Origin: Kutzneria chonburiensis
GTDB lineage: Bacteria > Actinomycetota > Actinomycetes > Mycobacteriales > Pseudonocardiaceae
Reading direction: 5' to 3'
Assembly (NCBI RefSeq): GCF_028622115.1
Contig: NZ_CP097263.1
Location: 7,626,001 to 7,690,000, forward strand
Length of the DNA stretch: 64,000 nucleotides
Below the pieces are notes generated by a model. It saw only the letters and a list, made by a program, of their open reading frames with translations. It had not been told where the DNA came from and made no database searches. The stretch's first letter is position 1, and every line of letters starts with the position of its first letter. Below, in pieces: positions 6,016 through 43,789 of the stretch. Position numbers and translations under genes: made by a program.

Positions 6016-6137
6016 CCTGACCGCCCGCGTGATGCCGGATCACATGGACTCCTCAGGAAGTCGACAGCGGCCCGACAGTTCCCGTTTCTTCGGGCACACT
6101 GGACACAACGTACGGACAGGGGAAGGACCGAACGGCC

Positions 6138-6785
6138 TTGCACATCGACCAGTGGATCGCGGCCATCCCACCGCTCGCGGTGTACGTCACGATCGGCCTG
6201 ATCGTGATGATCGAGAGCCTCGGCATCCCGATTCCGGGCGAGATCGCCCTGGTCAGCGCCACTTTGCTGACCATCCATCCCAGCTCGGCCGTCGAGTGGG
6301 AGTACATCGCCATCGCGGCGTCGGCCGGTGCCATCATCGGCGACTCGATCGGCTACTCGATCGGCCGCAAGGGCGGCAAACCCCTGTTCGAGTGGCTCGG
6401 ACGCAAGTTCCCGAAGCACTTCGGGCCCAGTCACGTGGCCACCGCGGAGCGGGCGTTCCAGAAGTGGGGCATGTGGACCGTCTTCTTCGGCCGCTTCATC
6501 GCCCTGCTGCGCATCTTCGCCGGCCCGCTGGCCGGCGCGCTGCACATGCGCTACTACAAGTTCCTGATCGCCAACGCGCTCGGCGGCATCGTCTGGGCGG
6601 CCGGCACGACGGCGCTGATCCACTATGTCGGCGAGGTCGCGGAGAAGTGGCTGAGCGGCTTCGCCTGGGTCGGCCTCGGCGTCGCGATACTGGCCGGCAT
6701 CGGCATCTCGCTGTACATCAAGCACCGCGCCGGCAAGGCCATGGCCGCCCCGGCCGAGACCGAGGAGCCGGCCGAGCTCCGCTGA
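6138..6785 (+). CDS. DedA-family membrane protein (second copy)
   Basis: 215 aa, starting at TTG 6138, preceded by GGGGAAGGA. Typical DedA features: ESLGIPIPGE near residue 25, GDSIGYSIGRKGGK, and FFGRFIALLRIFAGPLAGALHM, the conserved arginine-bearing loop. Four to five membrane segments with a hydrophilic Ala/Glu-rich tail. Sequence differs substantially from the divergent DedA at 5395, so it is not a recent duplicate. Ends at a strong shared terminator. Confidence 0.87.
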   Translation: MHIDQWIAAIPPLAVYVTIGLIVMIESLGIPIPGEIALVSATLLTIHPSSAVEWEYIAIAASAGAIIGDSIGYSIGRKGGKPLFEWLGRKFPKHFGPSHVATAERAFQKWGMWTVFFGRFIALLRIFAGPLAGALHMRYYKFLIANALGGIVWAAGTTALIHYVGEVAEKWLSGFAWVGLGVAILAGIGISLYIKHRAGKAMAAPAETEEPAELR

Positions 6786-22113: not shown

Positions 22114-22156
<43 letters not shown>

Positions 22157-22180: not shown

Positions 22181-22208
22181 GCATGTCCGTGCAGGTCAGA
22201 GGACATGC
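22181..22208. repeat. 8-bp inverted repeat just inside attL
   Basis: GCATGTCC (22181-22188) and GGACATGC (22201-22208) form a dyad 25 bp inside the att core. It could be an Xis/integrase accessory site or a small terminator for the minus-strand gene at 22268. No direct evidence. Confidence 0.35.
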
Positions 22209-26167: not shown

Positions 26168-26207
26168 GGTATAGAGCAGATCGCGCTCCGTGGTCGAGGG
26201 TCTTGAT

Positions 26208-26421: not shown

Positions 26422-27363
26422 TCAACGGACGACGGCATTCGGCGGAACGTCTCCCTGTACAAGTGCAGCGACCTGCCGGGCGGCGACTTCGTAGCAGAGC
26501 TTGCTCGTGCCCGGCACGGTTCGAGCCGAATGTGGGCTGACGATCAGGCCGTCGCAGTTCCACAGTGGATGGTCGGCCGGCAAGGGCTCGGGATCGGTGA
26601 CGTCGAGAGCGGCACGAAGGCGCTGTGCGGCCAACTCCGACACCAACGCGTCGGTGTCGACGATGCGGCCCCGGCCGGCGTTGACCAGCAACGCGGCGTC
26701 CGGCATCGCGGCGAGGATCTTCGCGTTGATCAGGCCCTCGGTGTCCGGTGTGAGCGGGCAGATGACGACCAAGATGTCGTGCTCGGTCACCAGGTCGGGG
26801 AGTTCGTCGACGCCGTGCACGTCGGCGCGAGCGGTCCGACCGACAAGGGTGGCCGTCGCGCCGAACGGGGGGAGCAGCCGGGCAACCGCGGTTCCGATCG
26901 CGCCGGCACCGAGCACGAGCGCGCGCTTGCCGCGCAGCGTCTCGAAGTCGGTGCCGGGGAGCCGATGCGCCCACGTGTGCTGGTCCTGGTAGCGAATCAG
27001 CGCAGGCCAACGGCGGTACGTGGTCAGGATCGCGGAGAGGATCCACTCGCTTACCGGGCCGGCATGGGCGCCACGGGCGTTCGCCAGCATGACGCCGGAC
27101 GGCACGTGCGGACTCCACTCGTCGACCCCGGCGCTCAGCAGCTGCACGAGCCGCAGCTTGGGCAGCTGCTGAACGAGTGCGAATGGGCGTTCGCTCCCCC
27201 GGTAGGGCGGCAAGAAGACTTCGGCGGTGCGCTGCTGGTCAGTCAGACTGGTGGCGGTCGGGTCGTACGTGATGACCTCGACTCCGGCCACCTGGCCAAG
27301 CAGGCTGACGCCGACCTGGTCCTCCGCCTCGTTGCTGACCAGCGCGCGCAACACGGTGCTCAT
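26422..27363 (-). CDS. D-2-hydroxyacid dehydrogenase family protein
   Basis: 313 aa. NAD-binding GAGAIGTAVARLL (about residue 150), catalytic Arg in NAGRGRIVD (about 229), Glu in TDPEPLPADHPLW (about 257) and His in SPHSARTVPG (about 276) give the full triad of this family. Reduces a 2-keto acid or oxidises the D-hydroxyacid. It overlaps the upstream GntR-kinase gene by 4 bp, so the two are coupled. A metabolic enzyme as AICE cargo is unusual. Confidence 0.85.
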   Translation of the reverse strand: MSTVLRALVSNEAEDQVGVSLLGQVAGVEVITYDPTATSLTDQQRTAEVFLPPYRGSERPFALVQQLPKLRLVQLLSAGVDEWSPHVPSGVMLANARGAHAGPVSEWILSAILTTYRRWPALIRYQDQHTWAHRLPGTDFETLRGKRALVLGAGAIGTAVARLLPPFGATATLVGRTARADVHGVDELPDLVTEHDILVVICPLTPDTEGLINAKILAAMPDAALLVNAGRGRIVDTDALVSELAAQRLRAALDVTDPEPLPADHPLWNCDGLIVSPHSARTVPGTSKLCYEVAARQVAALVQGDVPPNAVVR

Positions 27364-28199
27364 GCCGTCACGGTAGCCAGCAGCTGCTCGGCCTGTTCCT
27401 GCAACGGTCGAGCATCAGCGGAGTTGTGGATCACGATGTGCTCAATCGCCGGCTCGAACGCCAGGTTGAGACCCTCCACCCAGGCGTCCCAGTCAGCGAG
27501 CTTGGCAGCGTCGCGCGCCGCGCCACGGTGACGGATGTACCGCCGCATCGAGTCCGCGTCGGTCCGAACCCAGATGACGTGCAGGTCAGCGCCCAACCGT
27601 GCGAGGTTCGCGGCCGTCCGGTCGCACCACGTCTTGTCGGCCAGTTCGAGCGCAAACGGCGCGGTGACGATGGCGCTCGTGCCGCACTCGACGTTCTCCA
27701 TCAGGCCGGCAATGAGCGCTTCGTACTCGGCGGGCCGGATCGAGGTCCGGTACAGGTCTGACTCGCGGTCGTGGGGTGAGTGGCCGAGCAACTCCAACGC
27801 CTGCTCCACCACCGCCCGGGTGGTCGTGTCCTTGTCGAGCATCGGCCAGTGCGTCAGCCGCGCAAGGATCCGGCCCAACTCGGTCTTGCCGCTTCCCGCG
27901 TAACCGCCGATGAGCAGCACCTTCGGCCGACTCGGAGCGCTTCGCTCTACGGGCGGCGGGTAGTTGACGATGCGACCCGCGCGGGGCTTCCCAATGATCA
28001 GTCCCTCAGCCGCGAGGATGTCCATCGCCCGGCTGACGGTCGCCGGCGACGTGTCGTACTGGTCCGCGAGCTGCTTGGACGTCGGCAGGGGCGCGCGATG
28101 CGCGAGCCGACCAGCTTCGATCTCCGTCCGCAGGTGGTGCGCCAGGGCCTGCGACGTGGCCTTGCCCGAACTTGGGACGTTCCCGAGGTCCGAGTCCAT
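27360..28199 (-). CDS. GntR-type regulator fused to a P-loop kinase domain
   Basis: 279 aa from ATG 28199; TTG 28208 and a farther in-frame GTG at 28229 are alternatives. Residues 12-85 are a GntR winged helix (LRTEIEAGRLAHRAPLPTSKQLADQY; TVSRAMDILAAEGLI). Residues 90-279 are an AAA_33/zeta-toxin-like kinase: Walker A GGYAGSGKTELG, and HVIWVRTDADSMRRYIRHRG near the lid. GntR regulators control transfer in other AICEs (KorSA of pSAM2), but not with a kinase attached. TGACTC half-sites overlap its start and the rightward promoter. Confidence 0.8.
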   Translation of the reverse strand: MDSDLGNVPSSGKATSQALAHHLRTEIEAGRLAHRAPLPTSKQLADQYDTSPATVSRAMDILAAEGLIIGKPRAGRIVNYPPPVERSAPSRPKVLLIGGYAGSGKTELGRILARLTHWPMLDKDTTTRAVVEQALELLGHSPHDRESDLYRTSIRPAEYEALIAGLMENVECGTSAIVTAPFALELADKTWCDRTAANLARLGADLHVIWVRTDADSMRRYIRHRGAARDAAKLADWDAWVEGLNLAFEPAIEHIVIHNSADARPLQEQAEQLLATVTA

Positions 28200-28200
28200 C

Positions 28201-28238
28201 TGAGTCAACGCCTCCCTCTCGTGAGTCAACGTGACTCA
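28201..28238. promoter_or_regulatory. Cluster of TGAGTCA/TGACTCA sites at the GntR gene start
   Basis: TGAGTCA at 28201-28207 and 28222-28228 (both within the 10-mer TGAGTCAACG) and TGACTCA at 28232-28238 cover the ribosome-binding region of the GntR-kinase gene. The same TGACTC core recurs at 28330 and 28360 in the opposite promoter. Probable binding sites for the encoded regulator. Confidence 0.6.
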
Positions 28239-33170: not shown

Positions 33171-35420
33171 ATGAGCACCACCACCGTGACCGGGTTCTCG
33201 ACCCCGGACGACGACGACATGCCCGACAACGTCCACGTCCTGCGGCCGCACGTCAGCGACACCGTAGGCCCGGGCACGGAGATCGAACCGGCCGGCGACA
33301 TCGTCGACGCGGAGCTAGTCACCCCGGCACAGGAAGCCGAGCTGGCCCAGCGCCGCGCCGCGATCGCGCTGCGCCAGGCCGGCAACGTGGCCCGGGTGGT
33401 CCGGGGCGGGGCCACCCACCCCCACACCAAGGCCGTCGCCCGGGCCAGCGCGTCGCTGCTCGTGACCACGGCCCAGGGCCACGCGAGCTGGGCCCGGCGC
33501 GCGGTCGACGCCCTGACCCATGCTCACGTCCGCGAGCAGATCGCGTCCGCCCGCGCGGGCAACGACCGTGAGGCGCTGGCCGAGTGGACCGACCGGTTGG
33601 TGGACCTGAAAAAGGCCCGGGCCGAGCGGCTCCGGGCGCTGCCGGCCACCATCCGGGCCGCGCTGGTGTCGCTGCTGGTCGCGGTGGTCGTGCTGGCCGG
33701 CATCCTGCTCGTGGCGGGGATCGCGTTCCAGCTCACCCCGGGCGGGCTGGACTGGGATTCCTGGTGGGAGCTGTTGGGGGAGATCGCCGGTGTGCTCGGC
33801 ATGATCGCCACCGTGGCCGTGCACGTCGCCGTGTGGGGCGCGGTCCCAGCGTGGCTCGCGTTCGCGTGGCGAGAGGGCAAGCGTCGGGTGATGGCCCCGG
33901 CGTGGATGGGTGCCAGCGACGACGCCCCGACCGAGCGCGACGTGGTGCCGGATGAGGGCGCGATCCTTAACGCGCTGCGCAACCTGAACCTCCCGGCGCT
34001 GAACAAGAAGTTCAAGGAGGGCTGGAAGCCCCGGTGGGTGTCCGGATCGGCCTACGACGGCCGGGGGTGGCGCACGCAGCTGCTGCTGCCCGAGGGCGTC
34101 ACGGTCGAGATGATCGTGGACCGCAAGGACGTGCTCGCGCACAACCTGCTCCGGCTGCCGGTCGAGGTGTGGCCGACCGAGCCCAAGAACCAGCCCGGCG
34201 TGCTGGACCTGTGGGTCGCCGACCAGGGCTCGCTGACCAAGCCGGTCGACCCGTTCCCGCTGCTCACGGAGGGCACCACGGACTACTTCCGGGGCGTGCC
34301 GGTCGGCATCAACCCCCAGGGCAAGATCGTGCTCGGCCGGCTGTTCCAAGCCAACTGGGGCGTCGCCGGCATGATGGGCTCGGGCAAGTCGACGCTGATC
34401 ATCTCCGCCCTGTTGGGCGCGATGCTCGACCCGCTGGTGGAGATCGACGTGTACTGCATGGCGTTCAACGCCGACTACGACCCGCTGGCCCCGCGCCTGC
34501 GGACGCTGTTCAAGTCCGACGAACCGGATCAGATCCCGGTTGTGTTGGAGGCGCTCAAGAAGCTGATGAGCGAGCTGTCCGAGCGCGGGCGGATCCTCTC
34601 GGAGATGGGGGAGCCGAAGCTGACCCGCAAGCTCGCGGCCGCCGACCCCCGGATGCGGCCGCGTGTCGTGGTGATCGACGAGTGTCAGGAGCTGTTCGTC
34701 TCCGACATCGGCGAGGAAGCCGCGGAGCTGGTGGAGAAGATCGTGGCCAAGGCCCGCAAGTACGGCGTCACGATGCTGTTCGCGACGCCGGTCCCGTCTG
34801 CGGACTCGTTGCCGCGCAAGGTGGCCAAGGTGCTGTCCAACAAGGCGTGCTTCGCGATCGGCGACCACCAGGGCAACGACGCCATCCTGGGCACTGGCAA
34901 GCACAAGGCCGGCATCACCGCGACCACGTTGCGGCCGATGACCGAGGACTCCGACGGCACCGTCGACACCGGCGACATCGGCACCGCCATGACGGTCGGG
35001 TTCATGCCGATCGACGGCCTGATGCGCTGCTTCTACGTGCGGCGCGGCGAAGGCGTCGACGAGGTCACGCCGGTCGTGAAGCGGGCGTTGGCGTTGCGGG
35101 AAGGCACCGTGCCGCAGGCCCCCGCCATCCCGGCCGGCGACACCGACGTTGACCACCTGGCCGACGTCGCGGCGGTGTTGGCCGGGCGGACGGTGGTCAA
35201 GCAGCAGGAGGTGTTGGGGTTGCTGGCCCTGCACAACCCGGCCGTCTACACCGAGTGGTCGGCGGCCGAGCTGCGCGCCGCGCTGCCCGAGGCGGCCCGG
35301 CCGTACAAGACGATGGGCGCGATGCACCTCAACGCCGACCGGGTGGCCGCCGCTCTCGCCGCCCGCGACGCCGACACCGAAACCGACACGGACAGTGACG
35401 GACCGGAGGATGAGGCGTAG
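33171..35420 (+). CDS. FtsK/SpoIIIE-type DNA translocase (TraB-like conjugation protein)
   Basis: 749 aa from ATG 33171 (AAGGAA upstream). Pumps double-stranded DNA between mycelia during AICE transfer, without a relaxase. Cytoplasmic N-terminus, membrane helices at about residues 160-187 and 201-233, then the RecA-type motor with Walker A GMMGSGKST (about 400-408) and Walker B RVVVIDECQE (about 498-507). The C-terminal 80 residues form a small winged-helix-like region that in TraB proteins recognises 8-bp DNA repeats. No relaxase is encoded in the element, in agreement with this mode. Confidence 0.9.
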   Translation: MSTTTVTGFSTPDDDDMPDNVHVLRPHVSDTVGPGTEIEPAGDIVDAELVTPAQEAELAQRRAAIALRQAGNVARVVRGGATHPHTKAVARASASLLVTTAQGHASWARRAVDALTHAHVREQIASARAGNDREALAEWTDRLVDLKKARAERLRALPATIRAALVSLLVAVVVLAGILLVAGIAFQLTPGGLDWDSWWELLGEIAGVLGMIATVAVHVAVWGAVPAWLAFAWREGKRRVMAPAWMGASDDAPTERDVVPDEGAILNALRNLNLPALNKKFKEGWKPRWVSGSAYDGRGWRTQLLLPEGVTVEMIVDRKDVLAHNLLRLPVEVWPTEPKNQPGVLDLWVADQGSLTKPVDPFPLLTEGTTDYFRGVPVGINPQGKIVLGRLFQANWGVAGMMGSGKSTLIISALLGAMLDPLVEIDVYCMAFNADYDPLAPRLRTLFKSDEPDQIPVVLEALKKLMSELSERGRILSEMGEPKLTRKLAAADPRMRPRVVVIDECQELFVSDIGEEAAELVEKIVAKARKYGVTMLFATPVPSADSLPRKVAKVLSNKACFAIGDHQGNDAILGTGKHKAGITATTLRPMTEDSDGTVDTGDIGTAMTVGFMPIDGLMRCFYVRRGEGVDEVTPVVKRALALREGTVPQAPAIPAGDTDVDHLADVAAVLAGRTVVKQQEVLGLLALHNPAVYTEWSAAELRAALPEAARPYKTMGAMHLNADRVAAALAARDADTETDTDSDGPEDEA

Positions 35421-35690
35421 AGGGAATCGGGCAGGGACCGGTGAGGGAGGAAGGGAGTTCTCCCTCACCGCGTCCCTACCCCGCCTCCCTTACCGTGAGC
35501 TGCGACAACGAGCCGTAGGGAGGCAGGGAGCCGCACCGCGCCGGACCTGCGAAAACCACGGAAAACGGGGTCTATGCCGCGTCGCCCGTCGGCTCCCTCC
35601 CGCTCGCACCACCCCTTCACGTGACTACCCATCGTGACCATGGGCGCCGCTCGTTCCTGCGGGTCCAGCAGCCGTGGTCAAACCAGGAAT
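35421..35690. other. Candidate cis-acting transfer locus (clt) rich in GGGAG repeats
   Basis: No gene. GTGAGGGA and TCCCTCAC (around 35441-35467) form an 8-bp inverted repeat. GGGAG or its complement CTCCC/TCCCT recurs about eight times within 180 bp on both strands (for example AGGGAGGCAGGGAG, CCTCCCT, GGCTCCCTCCC). TraB-type translocases load at clustered short repeats next to their own gene. The role is inferred from position and repetition. Confidence 0.4.
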
Positions 35691-35738: not shown

Positions 35739-36788
35739 ATGTGCCGAACAGGAGGCCGCCGCTGCTCCGGCAGCAGCGGCACGGCCAAGAACACGCTGCG
35801 CCAACAGATCCACCGCGCCCGCCGCGCCGTCGACGCTGCCCGCGCAGCCGGCGACACCGCTGCTGTCGCCGCTGGTGAGGCCCGGATCGAGGCGGCCACC
35901 ACCGCGTTGAACGCGCTCAAGCAGCAGGACCAGCGGGCGCGGGAATCCGCTGCGCAGCAAGGGGACGTGACACCACCGCCCACCGTGGTCCGCGCGGACA
36001 CCGAGCGCGACACGACCGCCGTCGACAACGGCCTGGTCGTGGACATGCGCGTCACGGACAACCACGGCGTCGTCATCGGCCGGTCGGTTGGCCCGGTCCG
36101 TACTGGCCATGGCGTGCAGATCATCGGCGGCAGCTGGGACGACGTCGACCGCGAGCCGGACGCCGCGCACCGCGCCGCCCGGCAGGCAGCACGGGCCGAG
36201 CGGCAGGAAGCACGCGAGCAGCGTCACCAGGCCCGGCAGGAACGACGCAGGGCCCGCGAGGCGCGCTGGGCTGCTCAGGCGGGGGACGTGACCACCACCG
36301 GCCACATCTGGGGAGGCGTCCACATGGGAACGACCAGCCGCGACGACAACGTCAGGTTCGGCGACGTCACCAACAACACCGGCGTCGTGATGGGCAGCAA
36401 CACCGGCGGCATCTACGTCAGCAACTCGACCAGCAAGAGCCACGCCCGCCCGGGCGACGACGCCGAGCACGACGCCGAGAAGGCCGCGCGGAAGGCGGCC
36501 AAGAAGGCGAAGAAGAAGGCCAAGAAGGAGCGGACCGGCGGCGACGCCGGCGACGTCATCATCGGCCGCCAGGTCGGCGGGGTCGTGCAGGGCGACGGCT
36601 ACACCATCGTCGGCGGCAACGTCTACCGACACCCGGGCCGCCCGGTGTCCGTGCGCGGCACCGCAGTCACCGACGCCATCACCGGCCAGCCGCTCACGCC
36701 CACGCACACCGTCGCCAACCCCGCCGCCGGCAACTCCGTGGTGCACCGGGGCGGGGTCCTCTACGTCAACGGCGAACGGATCGACTAA
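35739..36788 (+). CDS. MCRTGGRRC-type protein with three RHIM-like repeats and basic coiled segments
   Basis: 349 aa from ATG 35739 (GAGGAG upstream). The N-terminus MCRTGGRRCSGSSGT is a known opening of proteins in actinomycete mobile elements. Then Ala/Arg-rich coiled helices (20-75, 138-190 and 235-268) alternate with three short beta-type segments: 108-131 (GVVIGRSVGPVRTGHGVQII), 212-229 (NNTGVVMGSNTGGIYVSN) and 271-296 (VIIGRQVGGVVQGDGYTIVG). These resemble RHIM/BASS amyloid-signalling motifs by eye. An in-frame ATG at 36324 has GGGGAGG 7 bp upstream, so a 154-aa shorter form is possible. Function unknown. Confidence 0.7.
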   Translation: MCRTGGRRCSGSSGTAKNTLRQQIHRARRAVDAARAAGDTAAVAAGEARIEAATTALNALKQQDQRARESAAQQGDVTPPPTVVRADTERDTTAVDNGLVVDMRVTDNHGVVIGRSVGPVRTGHGVQIIGGSWDDVDREPDAAHRAARQAARAERQEAREQRHQARQERRRAREARWAAQAGDVTTTGHIWGGVHMGTTSRDDNVRFGDVTNNTGVVMGSNTGGIYVSNSTSKSHARPGDDAEHDAEKAARKAAKKAKKKAKKERTGGDAGDVIIGRQVGGVVQGDGYTIVGGNVYRHPGRPVSVRGTAVTDAITGQPLTPTHTVANPAAGNSVVHRGGVLYVNGERID

Positions 36789-36818
36789 CCCGCCCACTAC
36801 CCCATCCGTCACCAGCAC

Positions 36819-36851
36819 GCGAGGCACTGTCCACACCGGACGGTGCCTCGC
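36819..36851 (+). terminator. Terminator after the RHIM-like gene
   Basis: GCGAGGCAC and GTGCCTCGC enclose GTCC-ACACC-GGAC; CGTTTCTCCTT follows. The inner GTCC...GGAC part is shared with the terminator at 38727. Confidence 0.8.
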
Positions 36852-36872
36852 CGCGTTTCTCCTTGTCAGCTC

Positions 36873-36883
36873 AGGGACGTGAC
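36873..36883 (+). promoter_or_regulatory. AGGGACGTGAC box before the 36905 gene
   Basis: Ten of eleven bases of the GGGGACGTGAC motif, 22 bp after a terminator and 32 bp (start to start) before GTG 36905. Likely part of a promoter or operator. Confidence 0.45.
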
Positions 36884-36904
36884 ACATCGCGAAGGGACCA
36901 CACG

Positions 36905-37846
36905 GTGATCAGCCCCGACAACTTCCCCACCCCCGCTCTCGCGCTGCGCTCGACCGACCCGGTCGAGGTCGACCGCGTGACCTACTTCGCCCGGCACCAG
37001 GCCAACGCCGCCGAAGACCTGCGCCGGCAGCTGCTGGCCACCGACTGGCCCGGACTGCCGCTCAAGCGCCGGATCGTCATGCTCCGGGCCAGCTTCACCA
37101 CGCTCGTGCAGTGGCGCTACGGGCTGGCCCGGCAGGCACCCGGCCGCATCGGCGTCGGCATCCCCTTGGACGCCGACCGGTTCCGCCTGTCCATGCGCGA
37201 GGCGGGCCCCAACTTCGACCGGCTCGGCTACACCGGCCGACTGCGCGCCGGTGCGCAGTGGGATGCGGTCAGCAGGACCTACGTCGGTGGGCAGGACACC
37301 CCGGCCAGCCGGATCATCCTCGCCTACGGCAACGCCGCGCTCGACCGGTTCGCCGCCGAAGCGCCCGACGGGGAGGTGTTGCAGAACGTCGTGGCGCTGC
37401 CCGACGGGACGCGCGTGAACGGCAACCGGCTGGTACGCCGCGCGGCCGCCGACCAGATCGGCGTCAACCTGCTGCGCCGGATCGCCACGCGCGGGCACGA
37501 CGCCAGCCGTATCGAAGTCGGCGGCGGCCCGATCTACGCCGTCACCGCCGCCGCCGATGACGCCGATGTCCTGTACGCCGAAGCCCTACGGCTGCTCGCG
37601 CAAGCGTGCGAGCTGCGGCGCGAACAGCGGATCAGGGCCTGGCAGACGGCTCGTTACCTGCTCTACCAGGGCCCGCGCACCAAGAAGGGCAGCGACGCCG
37701 TCATCCGCGCGTTCTTGGTCGCTGTCGGCTCGGTCCTGCTCTACCAGGTCCCGACGATCGAGCACGACGCCGACCTGCGGTGCATGGTCCTGGGCCAGCC
37801 CGCGGCAACCACCATGCCCGCCGACGCGGCCCTCTACCCCCGCTAG
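36905..37846 (+). CDS. AICE protein of unknown function, paired with PP2C
   Basis: 313 aa from GTG 36905 (GAAGGGA upstream). Mainly helical, with RIVMLRASFTTLVQWRYGLAR and AWQTARYLLYQGPRTKKGSDAVIRAF. I recognise no domain. It ends TMPADAALYPR; the next gene's product ends LMPADAALYSD, so the two share a C-terminal 8-mer although the rest is unrelated. Likely acts with the phosphatase, perhaps as its substrate or partner (inference). Confidence 0.65.
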   Translation: MISPDNFPTPALALRSTDPVEVDRVTYFARHQANAAEDLRRQLLATDWPGLPLKRRIVMLRASFTTLVQWRYGLARQAPGRIGVGIPLDADRFRLSMREAGPNFDRLGYTGRLRAGAQWDAVSRTYVGGQDTPASRIILAYGNAALDRFAAEAPDGEVLQNVVALPDGTRVNGNRLVRRAAADQIGVNLLRRIATRGHDASRIEVGGGPIYAVTAAADDADVLYAEALRLLAQACELRREQRIRAWQTARYLLYQGPRTKKGSDAVIRAFLVAVGSVLLYQVPTIEHDADLRCMVLGQPAATTMPADAALYPR

Positions 37847-37879
37847 CCCATGAAACCCGTTGAAAGGACACCGTTTCTC

Positions 37880-38608
37880 GTGACCGACACACTCACCTTC
37901 CCTGCCGTTCCGCAGGTGGCCATGGCGACCCGGCGCGGCGTGCGTGACCACAACATGGACGCCGCCGCGTCCTTCGCCGCCTCGACCGGACTGGTCGCCG
38001 TCGCCGTGGTCGACGGCATCGGCAACGACCAGGCCGGGGCCCAGACCATGACCGAGCTGGCCCGCATCGCCGTGAGGATCGGCGTCACCAAGGGCCCACT
38101 GGCCGGGATCCTCACTGCCGCCGCCTACATCGACGACCCCGGCACCGAGACCTACAAGCCCAACGCCGTCGCCGTGCTCGCGATCGCCGAGCCCGGAGAG
38201 CCGACGCTACTGGGCTGGGTCGGCGACTCCCACGCCTACGGCTGGGACGGCACGACCCTGCACCGCCGCACCAATCCCCACACCATGGGCGCGTTCCTGC
38301 GCTGGAACGGCGACAACGAGTTGGCCCCAGAGCACGACAACTGGGTCCGCCTCAGCCTGGTCAAGGCCACCCCGACCACAGTGGCGCTCTCGGAGATCCC
38401 CGCCGATGAGTTGGTGCTGCTGGTCTCCGACGGGATCGACAGCGTCGGCGACGACGAGTTGCGGGCGCTGGTTATGCGCCATCAGCACGATCCGCAGGCA
38501 CTGGCCGACGCCATCGTGGCCGCCGCCCGCGAGGATGAGGACGGCTACCGCGACGACGCCACCGCTGTGGTCCTCATGCCGGCCGACGCGGCGCTCTACT
38601 CGGACTAA
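37880..38608 (+). CDS. PP2C-family Ser/Thr phosphatase
   Basis: 242 aa from GTG 37880, with GAAAGGA upstream; ATG 37850 has no ribosome site. PP2C motifs in order: RDHNMDAAASF, AVVDGIGND (Mg-binding Asp), GWVGDSHAYGW, LVSDGIDSVGDDEL and YRDDATAVVL. Removes phosphate from Ser/Thr. No Ser/Thr kinase of the Hanks type lies in the element, but a HipA-like kinase does. The C-terminus shares MPADAALY with the upstream protein. The stop lies 3 bp before the 106-bp inverted repeat. Confidence 0.82.
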   Translation: MTDTLTFPAVPQVAMATRRGVRDHNMDAAASFAASTGLVAVAVVDGIGNDQAGAQTMTELARIAVRIGVTKGPLAGILTAAAYIDDPGTETYKPNAVAVLAIAEPGEPTLLGWVGDSHAYGWDGTTLHRRTNPHTMGAFLRWNGDNELAPEHDNWVRLSLVKATPTTVALSEIPADELVLLVSDGIDSVGDDELRALVMRHQHDPQALADAIVAAAREDEDGYRDDATAVVLMPADAALYSD

Positions 38609-38611
38609 CCG

Positions 38612-38717
38612 CCCAGGGGTGTCTTCCCAGTAGCGGTAACAACGGTAACAGCGGTAACACCGCAGGTCAGCGTGTTACCGCTGGCGTCACCGTTACCGCT
38701 ACGACGGCCAACACCCC
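38612..38717 (+). repeat. 106-bp inverted repeat, left copy, with GGTAAC iterons (candidate origin)
   Basis: Reverse complement of 41110-41215 with 5 mismatches in 106. It contains three direct GGTAAC units 9 bp apart (38635-38658), then two GTTACC units in opposite orientation. AGCGGTAACAC and GTGTTACCGCT form an 11-bp dyad inside it. Repeated hexamers with dyads flanking replication genes are typical of Rep-binding origins. Confidence 0.75.
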
Positions 38718-38726
38718 GGCACGTCC

Positions 38727-38761
38727 GGCGGGGCGTGGTCCACATCGGACTGCGCCCCGCC
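38727..38761 (+). terminator. Terminator between PP2C and prim-pol genes
   Basis: GGCGGGGCG / CGCCCCGCC stem enclosing GTCC-ACATC-GGAC, followed by TTCTGTTTG. Same inner element as the terminator at 36819. Confidence 0.8.
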
Positions 38762-38783
38762 TTCTGTTTGCCCACACCACCCT

Positions 38784-38794
38784 GGGGACGTGAC
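38784..38794 (+). promoter_or_regulatory. GGGGACGTGAC box before the prim-pol gene
   Basis: Exact copy of the 11-mer, 23 bp after the terminator and 40 bp before GTG 38824. Confidence 0.45.
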
Positions 38795-38823
38795 GCGTCC
38801 CGCGTACGAAAGGGCCTCCACCC

Positions 38824-39836
38824 GTGACCAGCACCCGAGACATGCTCGCGGCCGCGCTGGCTGCCGCCGCGCTGGGCTTGTACGTGTTCCCCATCCGGCA
38901 GGGCCGCAAGAAGCCCCCGCCTTCCACGGCGTCAAGTCCTGCCCCCGCAAGGGCATCTGCCGCAACGGCCACCAGGGCTGGGAGCAGCGCGCCATGGTCG
39001 ACCCCGACCTGATCCGCTGGTACTGGACCAGCCGCGAAGGCGCGGGCTGCAACGTCGGCATCGCCTGCGGGCCCTCGGGCATCGTGCTGGTCGACCTGGA
39101 CACGCCCAAGTCGCCGGAGGATGTGCCCTCGGACGGCTGGAACCGGAGGGGCATTCGGGATGGGCACGACGTGTTCACCGCCGTCTGCGAGCAGGCCGGC
39201 CAGCCCGTTCCCTGGGAGACCCGAGCGGTAGCCACGCCGCGCGGCGGGACGCACCTGTACTTCCGGGAACCGCCCGGCGTGCAGCTGCGCAGCACCGAAG
39301 GGGAGCAGGGCAACGGGTTGGGGTGGAAGGTCGACACCCGCGCCCACGGCGGCTACGTCGTCGCCCCCGGGTCGGTCACCGATGACGGCCGCTACACGAT
39401 CACCGAGGACTGCGCCCCGGCGGAGTTGCCGGCATGGTTGGCTTCGCGTCTTGCTTCCAGGCCACCAGCGGCCACCACAGCGGCTCCTGTGCGCGGCTCT
39501 GAGCGACTGCCCGCCTACGTCGCGGCGGCGGTGCGGGGTGAGTGCGATCGGGTTGCAGCGGCGCAACCAGGTCGGCACACCCGGACCTTGTTCAGCGCGG
39601 CCGGCAACCTTGGCCAGTTCGTCGGCGGCAACCTGCTCCCCCCGGTTGAAGCCGAAGCCGCTCTCTACGCGGCCGCACGCCACATGATCACCGGCGACTG
39701 CGACTGCACCGAGCGCGAGCTGCGCCGCACCATCACCAACGGCCTGCGCGCTGGGGCGTTCCGTCCCCGCGTGCCCCCGACCGACCCGCCCGCCACCACA
39801 CAGGGCGGGCTGTTCGGACAGCGGGGCGCGGCATGA
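38824..39836 (+). CDS. Bifunctional primase/polymerase (prim-pol), apparent -1 frameshift at 38914-38918
   Basis: Start GTG 38824 (AAAGGG upstream). The N-terminus MLAAALAAAALGLYVFPIRQGRKKP is the standard opening of the family, but its frame is lost after KKPP; the rest (AFHGVKSCPRKGICRNGHQGWEQRA, then IVLVDLDTPKSPEDV with the catalytic acidic pair, GGTHLYFREP and a helical C-terminus) lies in another frame. One extra C in CCCCC at 38914-38918 would restore about 337 aa. Initiates replication of the excised AICE with the DUF3631 ATPase. Whether the shift is real decides if the element is replicative. Confidence 0.75.
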
Positions 39837-39864
39837 CCGTCCACAGCGAACAGGAGAACAGCCC

Positions 39865-41094
39865 ATGACCGCCGCACTGCGGATCGTGCCGCCCGGCGCA
39901 CCCCAGCCCGGCCACGAGATCCTCGACGACGTCCGCGACTTCGTGGCGCGGTTCTCCGCGTTCCCCTCGCCGCACTGCGCCCCGACCCTGGCGTTGTGGT
40001 GGGCGCACACGTGGGCGGCCGAGCACTTCTACATCACGCCCCGGCTGGTGTTGTCCTCCGCAGAACCGGAGTCCGGCAAAACCCGCGTGCTGGAAGTCGG
40101 CAAGCACTTCGCCCGCGCGCCGGAACTGACCACCGCCGGGTCGGCCGCCGCGATGGTGCGGATGATCGCCGCCGGTCCGATCACGCTGCTGTTCGACGAA
40201 GTGGATGCCGTGTTCACCGCAGGCGGATCGGGCAACGAGGAAGTCCGCAACATGCTCAACAGCGGATACAAGCGGGGCGCGACGATCCCGAAATGCAAAG
40301 GTGACGCCGCGTCCGGCATCGTCGTGGAACGCCTGCCGGTGTTCGCCCCGGTCGCCATGGCCGGGCTGTACGGCTGCATTCCTGCAACGGTCACCACGCG
40401 GGCGATCACGATGAACCTGCGGAAGCGTCGCCACGACCAGCCCGTGGACGCCTACAACGAGAAACGCGCCGAGAAAGCCGCCGAACCCGTCCGGGACGCA
40501 TTGGCCGGGTGGATCACCGGAATCGGCGAAGCCCTAGGCGACGCCGAGCCAGTCATGCCGGACGGGGTCGCCGACCGGGCGGCCGAAATCTGGGAACCGC
40601 TGCTCGCTGTCGCCGACGCTGCCGGCGGGCATTGGCCCGACACCGCTCGCGCGGCGTGCGTCGATTTCGTCCAGACCAGCAAGCAAACCCCGGCATCGTT
40701 GGGTGTCCAGTTGCTCGCGGACATGCGCAAGGTATTCGCGACGCTGGACACGGACCGCGTTCCCACGCCGGTGCTGTTGGCGGCGCTGCTGGATATGGAA
40801 GACGCGCCGTGGACGGAAATGGAGAACGGTCGGCCCCTCACGGATCGGCGGCTGGCGAAGGAAATGCGCAAGTACTTCGTCGCGCCCGTCGCATTCCGTG
40901 CCGGTGGCCGGGTCGTGAAGGGCTACACCACGGGGCCCACGTTCGACACCAGCGGAGAGCAGGCGCAGGTGGGCCTGGCGGACGCGTGGTCGCGGTACGT
41001 GCTGACCAGCAGCAACGCTGCAGGTCAAGCCCTCACGGCCGGGGCGGCGGAGACGACGGCGGGCGCCCAGTCCGCGCTGGAAGGGATGCCATGA
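39865..41094 (+). CDS. DUF3631 P-loop ATPase (replication helicase partner)
   Basis: 409 aa from ATG 39865 (CAGGAGAACAGCCC ahead). Walker A SAEPESGKTRVLE (about 67-77) and Walker B TLLFDEVDAVF (about 105-115), then the DUF3631 region with a C-terminal winged helix (RLAKEMRKYFVAPVAFR). In many AICEs this ATPase is fused or adjacent to prim-pol and provides the helicase function. Ends 15 bp before the right inverted repeat. Confidence 0.85.
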   Translation: MTAALRIVPPGAPQPGHEILDDVRDFVARFSAFPSPHCAPTLALWWAHTWAAEHFYITPRLVLSSAEPESGKTRVLEVGKHFARAPELTTAGSAAAMVRMIAAGPITLLFDEVDAVFTAGGSGNEEVRNMLNSGYKRGATIPKCKGDAASGIVVERLPVFAPVAMAGLYGCIPATVTTRAITMNLRKRRHDQPVDAYNEKRAEKAAEPVRDALAGWITGIGEALGDAEPVMPDGVADRAAEIWEPLLAVADAAGGHWPDTARAACVDFVQTSKQTPASLGVQLLADMRKVFATLDTDRVPTPVLLAALLDMEDAPWTEMENGRPLTDRRLAKEMRKYFVAPVAFRAGGRVVKGYTTGPTFDTSGEQAQVGLADAWSRYVLTSSNAAGQALTAGAAETTAGAQSALEGMP

Positions 41095-41109
41095 CCGGCC
41101 GCACCCGAA

Positions 41110-41215
41110 GGGGTGTTGGCGATCGTAGCGGTAACGGTGACGCTAGCGGTAACACGCTGACCTGCGGTGTTACCGCTGTTACCGATGTTACCGCTACTGG
41201 GAAGGCACCCCTGGG
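41110..41215 (-). repeat. 106-bp inverted repeat, right copy, with GGTAAC iterons (candidate origin)
   Basis: Mirror of 38612-38717 (101 of 106 bases identical). Together they bracket the prim-pol and DUF3631 genes in a 2.6-kb unit. It lies directly upstream of xis, so binding there could also control excision genes. Confidence 0.75.
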
Positions 41216-41279
41216 GGCCCCGGCCGCTGCCGGGGCTCTCCCGCTACATGGTCCTGTGTCGAACGGTCAGGGGGACGCT

Positions 41280-41513
41280 ATGCCGGAGATTGCTCGCGTG
41301 CCGGTGGCGGTGCCAGTGCGGCACCTGTATCGAATTCCGGAAGCCATGGTGTTGTTGTCCATGGGCCGATCTGCGATCTATGAGCAGATCCGGGCCGGTC
41401 GCCTCAAGACGGTCAAGCAGGGGACGAGCCGCCTTGTTCCGGCGGCGGCCATCAACGCGTACGTGGAATTGCTCATGAGGGAATCGGGGGTGGAGTTTGA
41501 CCAAGCGTCGTAG
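41280..41513 (+). CDS. xis: Excisionase-type helix-turn-helix protein
   Basis: 77 aa from ATG 41280 (AGGGGG upstream). LYRIPEAMVLLSMGRSAIYEQIRAGRLKTVKQG is the MerR-like winged helix of AICE Xis proteins; basic Arg/Lys in recognition helix and wing. Directs the integrase toward excision. It overlaps the integrase start by 17 bp. Confidence 0.85.
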   Translation: MPEIARVPVAVPVRHLYRIPEAMVLLSMGRSAIYEQIRAGRLKTVKQGTSRLVPAAAINAYVELLMRESGVEFDQAS

Positions 41514-42663
41514 CCGTGGCGATGGTGGTCTGCATTGGGATGAGAACCGTAAGCGCTGGATCGCTACGGTCACCGTCGGATTCGACGGACGTGGTAAGCG
41601 GATCACCAAACGTGCCAGTGGGCGGACGAAGACCGAGGCGAAAAACAAGCTTGACGCCATCATGCGTGACGTCAAGGATGGCCTTGCGATCGAACCGCAC
41701 AACTACACCGTCGCTGACGCGGTGAACAACTGGTTGCAATACGGGCTGAACGGCCGTGACAAGCAGACCGTTGCAACATGTCGGATCCTCGCCGAAACGC
41801 ACGTCGTGCCCGCCTTGGGTGCTCTTAAGCTCCACAAGCTGTCGGCGGACGACGTTGACGAGTGGCTTGCGGATAAGGCGAAGACGCTCAGTACGCGGAC
41901 GCTGCGCGACCTGCGGTCAGTTCTCCTCCGTGCCGTCAAACGGGCGCAGGCGCGCGACAAGGTGAAGCGCAACGTCGTGCTGCTCTGCGAGTGCCCGGAA
42001 GGGCAGGCTGGCCGGCCGTCCAAGTCGCTGACGTTCGACCAGGCGGAGGCTGTTCTGCGCCGGGCAGAGGCCGACGACTCGACGATCGGTGCGTACATCG
42101 TGGTGTCCCTCGTTGGCGGCCCACGGACGGAGGAGGTGCGGCCGCTCACGTGGTCGCATGTGGACCTGAGGGGCAACCCGGACGCCAACCCGCCGGTACC
42201 GCCGCACATCGCTGTGTGGCGGTCGGTGCGGACCGGTGGCGACACGAAGACTCGGAAGTCTCGCCGCACGCTTGCCTTGCCACAGAGGGCAATCAGCGCG
42301 CTCAAGGCGCAGCAGGCGCGTCAGGAGGTGCACAGGAAGCGCCCCGGCAAGCAGTGGCGGGAACACGGCCTGGTGTTCGCGTCGGAGGTCGGCACCGAGC
42401 TGGACGCCGCCAACGTGCGCCGCCAGTTCCGGCGCGTGCTCAAGGCGGCCGGGCTGAACGCGGCCGAGTGGACGCCCCGTGAGCTGCGCCACAGCTTCGT
42501 TTCGCTGCTCTCCGACAGCGGCATGAGCTTGGAGCAGATCTCACGGCTGGTGGGCCACAGTGGCACGTCGGTCACGGAGGAGGTTTACCGCCACCAGATC
42601 CGTCCGGTGATCCAAGACGGGGCGACTGCCATGGACCGGATTTTCCCGGACTCAGCAGCGTAG
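41497..42663 (+). CDS. int: Tyrosine site-specific integrase
   Basis: 388 aa from TTG 41497. N-terminal arm-binding domain (GGLHWDENRKRWIATVTVGFDGRGKR), a SAM-like core-binding domain (DAVNNWLQYGLNGRDKQTV), then the catalytic domain with Arg in GGPRTEEVRPL (about 208), RELRHSF (about 328-334), GHSG (353) and the nucleophile Tyr in EEVYRHQ (363). The first His of the usual H-x-x-R box is Arg, which is common in this integrase group. It sits 67 bp from the attR core, as expected. Confidence 0.95.
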   Translation: MTKRRSRGDGGLHWDENRKRWIATVTVGFDGRGKRITKRASGRTKTEAKNKLDAIMRDVKDGLAIEPHNYTVADAVNNWLQYGLNGRDKQTVATCRILAETHVVPALGALKLHKLSADDVDEWLADKAKTLSTRTLRDLRSVLLRAVKRAQARDKVKRNVVLLCECPEGQAGRPSKSLTFDQAEAVLRRAEADDSTIGAYIVVSLVGGPRTEEVRPLTWSHVDLRGNPDANPPVPPHIAVWRSVRTGGDTKTRKSRRTLALPQRAISALKAQQARQEVHRKRPGKQWREHGLVFASEVGTELDAANVRRQFRRVLKAAGLNAAEWTPRELRHSFVSLLSDSGMSLEQISRLVGHSGTSVTEEVYRHQIRPVIQDGATAMDRIFPDSAA

Positions 42664-42682
42664 TCACGCAGTTAGTCACTCA
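42663..42682 (+). repeat. Candidate integrase arm site (right)
   Basis: GTCACGCAGTTAGTCACTCA, 19 of 20 bases as at 22255-22274, immediately after the integrase stop codon and 48 bp from the attR core. Confidence 0.6.
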
Positions 42683-42690
42683 GACGCAAA

Positions 42691-42726
42691 TCAGGGGCTG
42701 TCCGCTCTACAGTGGACAGCCCCTGA
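42691..42726. terminator. Element-borne terminator, now serving int and tRNA-Pro
   Basis: TCAGGGGCTGTCC / GGACAGCCCCTGA, perfect 13-bp stem with a 10-nt loop. It lies between the integrase stop and the tRNA 3' end, replacing the chromosomal terminator left at 22070. Confidence 0.85.
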
Positions 42727-42727
42727 C

Positions 42728-42805
<78 letters not shown>

Positions 42806-42826
42806 GTTGATCGAACGAGGTGAAGT

Positions 42827-43789
42827 CTAGCTGATGTCGGCTCCAGCTCCGAATCGGGTCCTGCTTTGGCGGCTGGACCCCTCTTGACCTGCGCCGTTGC
42901 TGCGGGGGACGAGCGTGAGCAGGCTGGCTTCCGGCGGGCAGGCGAAGCGGACGGGCGCATATGGGCTGGTCCCGAGGCCGGCGGACACGTGGAGCCACGT
43001 GTGGGCGCCCCAGCGGGAGACGCCACGGGCGCGGGTGCGATCCAGCTCACAGTTTGTGACGAGGGCGCCGTAGCCGGGGAGGCGGAGTTGTCCGCCGTGG
43101 GTGTGGCCGGCCATGACGAGGTCGTAGCCGTCGGCGGCGAACTGGTCGAGTACGCGGGGTTCGGGGGAGTGGGTGACGCCGAGGCTCAGCGCGGCCGAGG
43201 GGTCGGGGCGGCCGGCGATGTCTTCGTAGCGGTCGCGCTTGAGGTGGGGGTCGTCGAGTCCGGCGGTGACGATGGCCTGGCCAGCGACGGTGATGGTCTG
43301 CCGGCTGTGGGTGAGGTCGTGCCAGCCGTGTTCGACGAACGCCGCGCGCAGGTCGCGCCAGGGCAGGGGGATGCCGTGGATGCGCTTCTTGCGGGCCTTG
43401 GGCAGCAGGTAGCGCACCGGGTTCTTGGGCTTGGGCGCGTAGTAGTCGTTGCTGCCGAAGACGAACACGCCGGGCAGGTCGAGCAGCGGCCCCAGGGCGC
43501 GGACGACGCCGGGCACGGCGTGCCGGTGGGCGAGGTTGTCGCCGGTGTTGACGACGAGGTCGGGCGCGAGCTGGGCGAGTTCGGCGACCCAGCGCTGCTT
43601 GGACCGTTGGCCGGGCATCATGTGCAGGTCGGAGATGTGCAGCACGCGCAGCGGCGTGGCGCCTTCGGCCAGCACCGGCACGGTGGCTTCGCGCAGCGTC
43701 CACCTGGTCCGCTCGATGGCGGCGGCGTAGCCGACCGTGGCGGCTCCGAGGGCGGCCGTGCCCAGGACTATCCGACCGAACGTCTTCAC
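42827..43789 (-). CDS. Metallophosphoesterase (calcineurin-like), membrane-anchored
   Basis: 320 aa. N-terminal hydrophobic anchor (RIVLGTAALGAATVGYAAA). Dimetal phosphoesterase motifs in order: HISDLHMMPG (about 51), VVNTGDNLAH (about 81), FGSNDYY, GVTHSPEP and MAGHTHGGQLRLPG. YaeI/YkuE-like; the substrate may be a lipid A-type or nucleotide phosphodiester, not known in actinomycetes. Gene precedes tRNA-Pro on the same strand. Confidence 0.88.
   Translation of the reverse strand: MKTFGRIVLGTAALGAATVGYAAAIERTRWTLREATVPVLAEGATPLRVLHISDLHMMPGQRSKQRWVAELAQLAPDLVVNTGDNLAHRHAVPGVVRALGPLLDLPGVFVFGSNDYYAPKPKNPVRYLLPKARKKRIHGIPLPWRDLRAAFVEHGWHDLTHSRQTITVAGQAIVTAGLDDPHLKRDRYEDIAGRPDPSAALSLGVTHSPEPRVLDQFAADGYDLVMAGHTHGGQLRLPGYGALVTNCELDRTRARGVSRWGAHTWLHVSAGLGTSPYAPVRFACPPEASLLTLVPRSNGAGQEGSSRQSRTRFGAGADIS

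Follow-up and report, generated by a model that had tools for sequence, protein, structure and literature searches.

Why should an integrated element carry its replication genes between two long and nearly identical inverted arms? The question is raised by a 20.7-kb AICE of Kutzneria chonburiensis (positions 22114-42773 of the window, by which we mean the whole 64,000-nucleotide stretch analysed). Integrated in tRNA-Pro, where one of its att repeats lies, it encodes the integrase, excisionase, FtsK-type Tra and DUF3631 protein expected of such elements (Table 1). How elements with the DUF3631 initiator, RepAM, replicate is unsettled, and a rolling-circle prediction is in print (available text of PMC3218068). 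The initial annotation saw in the arms either a two-part origin, with both parts possibly bridged by Rep, or a switch that inverts the replication module. Our results favor the former: we think it probable, at roughly two chances in three, that each arm is one half of an iteron-type replication origin associated with RepAM, and that this origin has been split here.

Table 1. Features of the element, with positions in the window
Feature	Position	Strand	Remarks
att repeat, opposite element end	22114..22156	.	43 bp, perfect
FtsK/SpoIIIE-type transfer gene (tra)	33171..35420	+	
AGGGA-type repeat stretch (clt-like)	35420..35540	.	just past tra stop, read by eye; unlike GGTAAC
Arm A	38612..38717	+	GGTAAC at 38635, 38644 and 38653; core GCAGGTCAG from 38662; opposing GTTACC at 38674 and 38692
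Terminator-like hairpin	38727..38761	+	between arm A and prim-pol start; 15-pair stem; spacer matches L035
Prim-Pol gene	38824..39836	+	reading frame shifts at about 38916; interrupted as sequenced
DUF3631 (RepAM-type replication initiator)	39865..41094	+	PF12307, E 2.4e-54
Decayed left-arm vestige	41007..41039	+	in DUF3631 3' end; core GCAGGTCA retained at 41020, units decayed
Arm B	41110..41215	-	GTTACC at 41187, 41178 and 41169; GGTAAC at 41148 and 41130; core TGACCTGC on + from 41158
Excisionase-type HTH gene	41280..41513	+	
Tyrosine integrase	41497..42663	+	
att repeat inside tRNA-Pro	42731..42773	.	43 bp, perfect

A long inverted repeat encloses the replication genes

Arm A and the reverse complement of arm B are identical at 101 of 106 bases, a figure that recomputation upheld, and they form the longest inverted repeat within 36500-43500. 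The three units at 9-bp steps and the two opposing units of each arm are as first described. Dyads are also present: a perfect 11-bp dyad is listed in arm B, and an imperfect one of 31 nt, its halves separated by 11 nt, lies inside arm A. Prim-pol and DUF3631 are enclosed by the arms, as annotated, and we recognised no further gene between them. Two frames cover prim-pol (38824-39012 and 38790-39836), and the break at about 38916 is either a sequencing slip or real. This break, the hairpin and the vestige are additions to the initial annotation. A SpoIIE/PP2C-type phosphatase gene (37850-38605) lies immediately upstream of arm A, and farther away the element encodes a GntR-type regulator fused to an AAA/zeta-toxin-like kinase domain (27360-28229).

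Within the genome, full-length arms are confined to this locus. They hold 10 of the 17 copies of GGTAAC/GTTACC in the window, with 7 outside, and a search of the whole genome (10,411,187 bases) with an arm returned two full-length matches (E 1.8e-49 and 1.5e-42) and two partial ones located on the arms themselves. Both arms score 30/30 against a template of the design, for which the best score in 243 kb of base-shuffled sequence (one strand) is 25, and scores of 25-26 also arise by chance in real coding DNA. The octamer GCAGGTCA, the core of the vestige, occurs 7 times in the 20.7-kb element against 2 times in the remaining 43.3 kb of the window; three of the 7 copies are in the arms and the vestige, and one is at 22191, beside the left att repeat. 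Compared with shuffled sequences, the arms fold as ssDNA with z-scores of -6.2 and -6.7 (the two strands of A) and -7.6 (B), and the left arm of the closest relative (L035, also Kutzneria) with -5.6. Such a hairpin is not universal, because in some relatives (L087 and L176, for example) no opposing unit lies beside the core.

Arms of the same design adjoin DUF3631 in many relatives

The initial annotation had proposed looking for paired GGTAAC arrays in AICEs with DUF3631 genes, and we made this comparison. Of 297 genomes of the family, 103 encode DUF3631 homologues (E 1e-20 or better). We scanned 163 loci, composed of the window, 60 fetched and 80 named loci (the best 80 of 473 relatives), two plasmid records and 20 further regions, of which 119 were left after removal of duplicates. 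A strict arm, for which we required three similar units spaced by 9 bp together with a GG(T/C)CA core, lies directly 3' of DUF3631 in 79 of these 119 non-redundant loci. Both arms are present in 52 of them, only the left in 21, and only the right in 6, including the window; a looser core requirement gave 53, 20 and 6, one of the 53 being an off-core reading. Base-shuffled controls had 0-1 matches per 1.2 Mb in ten replicates. In the 52 two-armed loci the cores are 74-188 bp apart (median 119). The named hosts of the arrays include Mycobacterium, Mycolicibacterium, Nocardia, Streptomyces, Amycolatopsis, Glycomyces and Dactylosporangium, and the nearest named relative, among the best 80 of 473, is Kutzneria sp. 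CA-103260. A strict right arm and additional units are also present on the two circular plasmid records with DUF3631; as both encode an integrase, these may represent excised AICEs.

These arms share a design in which three direct units 9 bp apart are followed by the core GCAGGTCA or CTGGTCAG, often with opposing units. The core varies little and is most commonly GCAGGTCA on the left and CTGGTCAG on the right, while the left type is found in both window arms and in the right arm of L104. Among 67 distinct left arms, the core columns GCA are conserved at 81, 94 and 88% and T at 82%; since the scan itself required GG, C and A, only the remaining core letters are independent evidence. The units, in contrast, vary by element (GGTAAC, CGTAAC, CGCTAC, CGCGAC, GGTTAC, CGTGAC, CGCAAC and others) and mostly fit [CG]GnnAC, with G at position 2 in 91-94%, while positions 5 and 6 are for the most part A and C. 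They change in concert: all ten units are GGTAAC in the window, against CGTAAC in 9 of the 10 units of L035.

Some loci have no such array. No strict arm lies 3' of DUF3631 in 40 of the 119 loci, in 10 of which a hexamer recurs at least six times there, unit-like in six (L070, L082, L161, L166, L170 and L175); nothing was found in the remainder. In a tree of 63 DUF3631 proteins, with array labels assigned by hand from the scans, the window and L035 fall in a clade of 26 rows, the other 24 of which have no DUF3631-adjacent array. The layout around DUF3631 differs as well. An integrase/excisionase match was found in the stretch covered in 45 of 118 relatives, 38 times downstream of DUF3631 on the same strand, once upstream on the same strand, and six times upstream on the opposite strand (L156, L157, L167, L170, L181 and L203). 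Module order thus varies among distant elements; arrays on both sides of DUF3631 accompany this only in L203, which has an extra one upstream.

The protein likely to read the units is the DUF3631 product itself. According to the available text of PMC3218068, DUF3631 is RepAM, the initiator named for pMEA300, whose autonomous replication is ascribed to it. Residues S70 G71 K72 and D111 E112 are invariant across 43 aligned DUF3631 proteins, which fits a P-loop ATPase. A sequence search against solved structures was uninformative, its matches being designed armadillo repeats and two AAA ATPases (E 0.64 and 0.71). The C-terminal half of the protein diverges more when the units differ (mean residual +0.029 in 295 same-unit pairs against -0.008 in 1008 different-unit pairs; 0 of 2000 permutations). 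Kinship is uncontrolled in this comparison and there are counter-examples such as L075/L082, so that the co-variation of units with the protein is suggestive only.

A decayed left arm and an inverted near-copy

If two adjacent arms are the common arrangement, how did the window come to have them on either side of its replication genes? DUF3631 lies between two arms in none of the 119 loci but the window. Arms away from the place downstream of DUF3631 were found in three of the 119, namely the window (-1201), L036 (-1830) and L203 (-2630), more than 3 kb of upstream DNA being covered in 74 of the 79 armed loci. L035 has adjacent arms, with cores about 150 bp apart, and its left arm falls within the 3'-terminal part of DUF3631. 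The vestige in the window aligns with this left arm with a 21-nt gap, and its core is 134 bp from that of arm B; it fits the old left-arm place, this distance being within the range of relatives. Both window arms align better with the right arm of L035 than with the left, with scores of 132 against 82 for arm B and 106 against 87 for arm A. From about 38702 inward, the window matches the L035 spacer upstream of the L035 small gene (score 113, against 41 for the best of 200 shuffles), and so arm A seems placed at that ancestral spacer.

It looks, from these alignments, as if the original left arm decayed and the right arm was copied, in inverted orientation, to the site upstream of prim-pol, giving arm A. 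Arms do get copied, since the right arm of L151 (Amycolatopsis orientalis) lies in a 151-bp tandem duplication (6060-6520). Taken as a whole, the inner flank of arm B matches the flank of the right arm in L035 (score 52). Twelve bases within it (CGCCAACACCCC), however, agree with the upstream spacer and not with that flank, and these twelve bases hint that exchange may have gone in both directions. The initial annotation had taken the conservation of a long arm as a sign of function or of recent duplication. The design of units and core is conserved across relatives, whereas the identity of the long arms in the window looks like recent copying. The array seems not to be tied to prim-pol, because L035 keeps its arms with no prim-pol match in its 13.2-kb stretch; the query was the window Prim-Pol, and diverged genes could be missed.

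Two probable halves of an origin

The design of the arms, their position, their conservation, the vestige and the inverted near-copy can be read directly from the DNA. From them we infer protein binding, origin activity and the role of the core. The initiator, a P-loop ATPase by its motifs, would read the units, load at each arm and open the DNA; the core, oppositely oriented in the two arms, would mark the start of synthesis on each strand. Decay of the left arm, with the inverted copy of the right arm taking over upstream of prim-pol, would then have split the origin around its own genes. Regular direct repeats adjoining the initiator gene are present, as in iteron origins, with arm B beside DUF3631 and arm A 2.4 kb off, where the rep operon begins. 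The arms in 79 of 119 loci, the arrangement in L035 and the two circular plasmid records give the two-part origin good comparative support. Iteron-type origins typically also include an AT-rich unwinding region. In the 43 loci compared, the DNA between the arms shows no AT enrichment (32.8% against a background of 31.7%), for which reason we lowered our confidence in the origin reading from 0.70 to 0.66. The armless loci, the 24 armless rows in the clade of the window and the printed rolling-circle prediction also count against it.

The arms might instead be control sites bound by the initiator (for copy number, incompatibility, autoregulation or partition), with the real start of replication elsewhere. 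Control of iteron replicons by handcuffing is known, and both the many array-less DUF3631 loci and the lack of an AT-rich stretch between the arms would agree with such sites. Yet arm A precedes the terminator-like hairpin, and so is probably outside the prim-pol promoter, and strict arms elsewhere in the stretches covered were not found except in the window, L036 and L203. We regard control sites as unlikely. A role for arm A as an operator of prim-pol was also considered, and is thought unlikely because the hairpin lies between them; terminator-like sites number 2 in the region, against 1.4 in shuffles.

A role in transfer is less probable still. The arms would be transfer sites (clt), recognised by the FtsK-type Tra through its C-terminal winged helix, and clt loci are likewise repeat arrays beside tra in the available part of PMC3583192. 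A 9-bp triple with the core GCAGGTCAA lies upstream of DUF3631 in L036 and L203, and in the L036 genome this array comes directly after the stop codon of a gene upstream that we read as tra. However, the arms follow DUF3631 and not tra, from which they are more than 3 kb away in the window, while clt repeats lie directly beside tra. Moreover, tra has adjacent repeats of its own, of AGGGA-type in the window and AGGGACC in L035. We also asked if the core had moved to the tra side in array-less loci, and discarded this idea: CTGACC/GGTCAG lies within 300 bp after tra in 7 of 22 array-less and 10 of 29 array-bearing loci (p = 1; tra was located in 51 of 63 loci, and for L036, at least, the computed stop is wrong). 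The upstream arrays of L036 and L203 are made of other units (CTCATTC; GAAA-type) and yet have the core GCAGGTCAA, and the one in L203 is additional to both usual arms 3' of DUF3631.

The pC194-like nick motif is TCTTGATA, and its single exact copy in the element lies at 26201, a long way from rep. When one mismatch is allowed, the window has 10 copies against 6.5, which is near chance (12 of 100 shuffles reach 10). A rolling-circle origin with such a nick is thus very unlikely here, although the available text of PMC3218068, citing te Poele et al., reports this very prediction for RepAM, with pC194-like nick sites; the invariant S-G-K and D-E of the 43 proteins, as in P-loop ATPases, also argue against it. 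Finally, the inversion switch found no positive support and is extremely improbable: inverted 106-bp arms that are 95% identical, and the variable module order with an upstream integrase on the opposite strand in 6 of 45 relatives, would suit recombination that flips prim-pol and DUF3631, but no other locus has DUF3631 between arms, the likeness of the arms fits a recent copy, and the assembly shows one orientation.

The conserved array, with its steady core and variable units, offers footprinting and origin-mapping studies a defined site in actinobacterial mobile elements, including mycobacterial ones. It may also help to decide which elements are able to coexist, and the split copy amounts to a natural experiment on whether the two arms need to be near each other.

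Comparison with other replicons

The matches listed in our literature search contain no description of the array, its variable units or its core, but RepAM papers lie outside those matches and part of the array may already be in print there. The RepAM replicons (pMEA300 and the DUF3631 AICEs) have the same initiator family as the window element; the available text of PMC3218068 does not describe array, variable units or core for them, and the split around the rep genes is found, among the 119 loci, only in the window. Like the window, the Streptomyces plasmids pWTY27 (by its description) and pFP11 combine Rep and prim-pol genes with a nearby iteron stretch that contains inverted repeats. In the available part of PMC3583192, RepA of pWTY27 protects a 105-bp inverted repeat in the iteron stretch beside the prim-pol gene, and RepA of pFP11 is said to bind the pFP11 iterons. 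The core GCAGGTCAG lies beside the iterons of pFP11, as in arm A, whereas the pFP11 Rep has no DUF3631 match in Pfam.

Two more distant systems offer parallels, both from the available text of PMC4234260. The oriV of RSF1010 combines iterons, two start sites (ssiA and ssiB) and a dedicated primase. In the window, by contrast, units and core are combined within each arm, the priming role is putative, and prim-pol is interrupted (with no match in L035). The crenarchaeal prim-pol plasmid pRN1 has its origin just 3' of the replication gene, and this origin still supported replication when displaced elsewhere; it differs from the arms in being a stem-loop without iterons, and its Rep has another architecture.

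The core extends beyond RepAM elements. Eight prim-pol plasmids were compared, pFP11 and seven picked among 60 listed of 378 records, and GCAGGTCA occurs in the hand-chosen non-coding stretch after rep in six of them; it is absent from L206 and from L209, whose stretch ends at the record end. Shared ancestry may explain its presence in these plasmids. Its enrichment in nine plasmid stretches is modest, with 65 copies against 14.3 expected and rank 30 of the 3452 8-mers with 20 or more copies. We raise, tentatively and with much more doubt than belief, the idea that GCAGGTCA could be a strand-start or loading site common to two classes of actinobacterial replicon, those with DUF3631 (RepAM) and prim-pol plasmids with another Rep. 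The origin would then be a facing pair of such sites, each addressed by element-specific iterons, and the 2.4-kb separation in Kutzneria would suggest that two half-origins act independently, in place of a single compact origin. In six of the eight records with a listed FtsK gene (L103 and L104 being without it), the octamer is also present on the opposite strand, 142-156 bp past the end of tra, which shared ancestry may likewise explain; these six, L207-L212, are all Streptomyces prim-pol plasmids.
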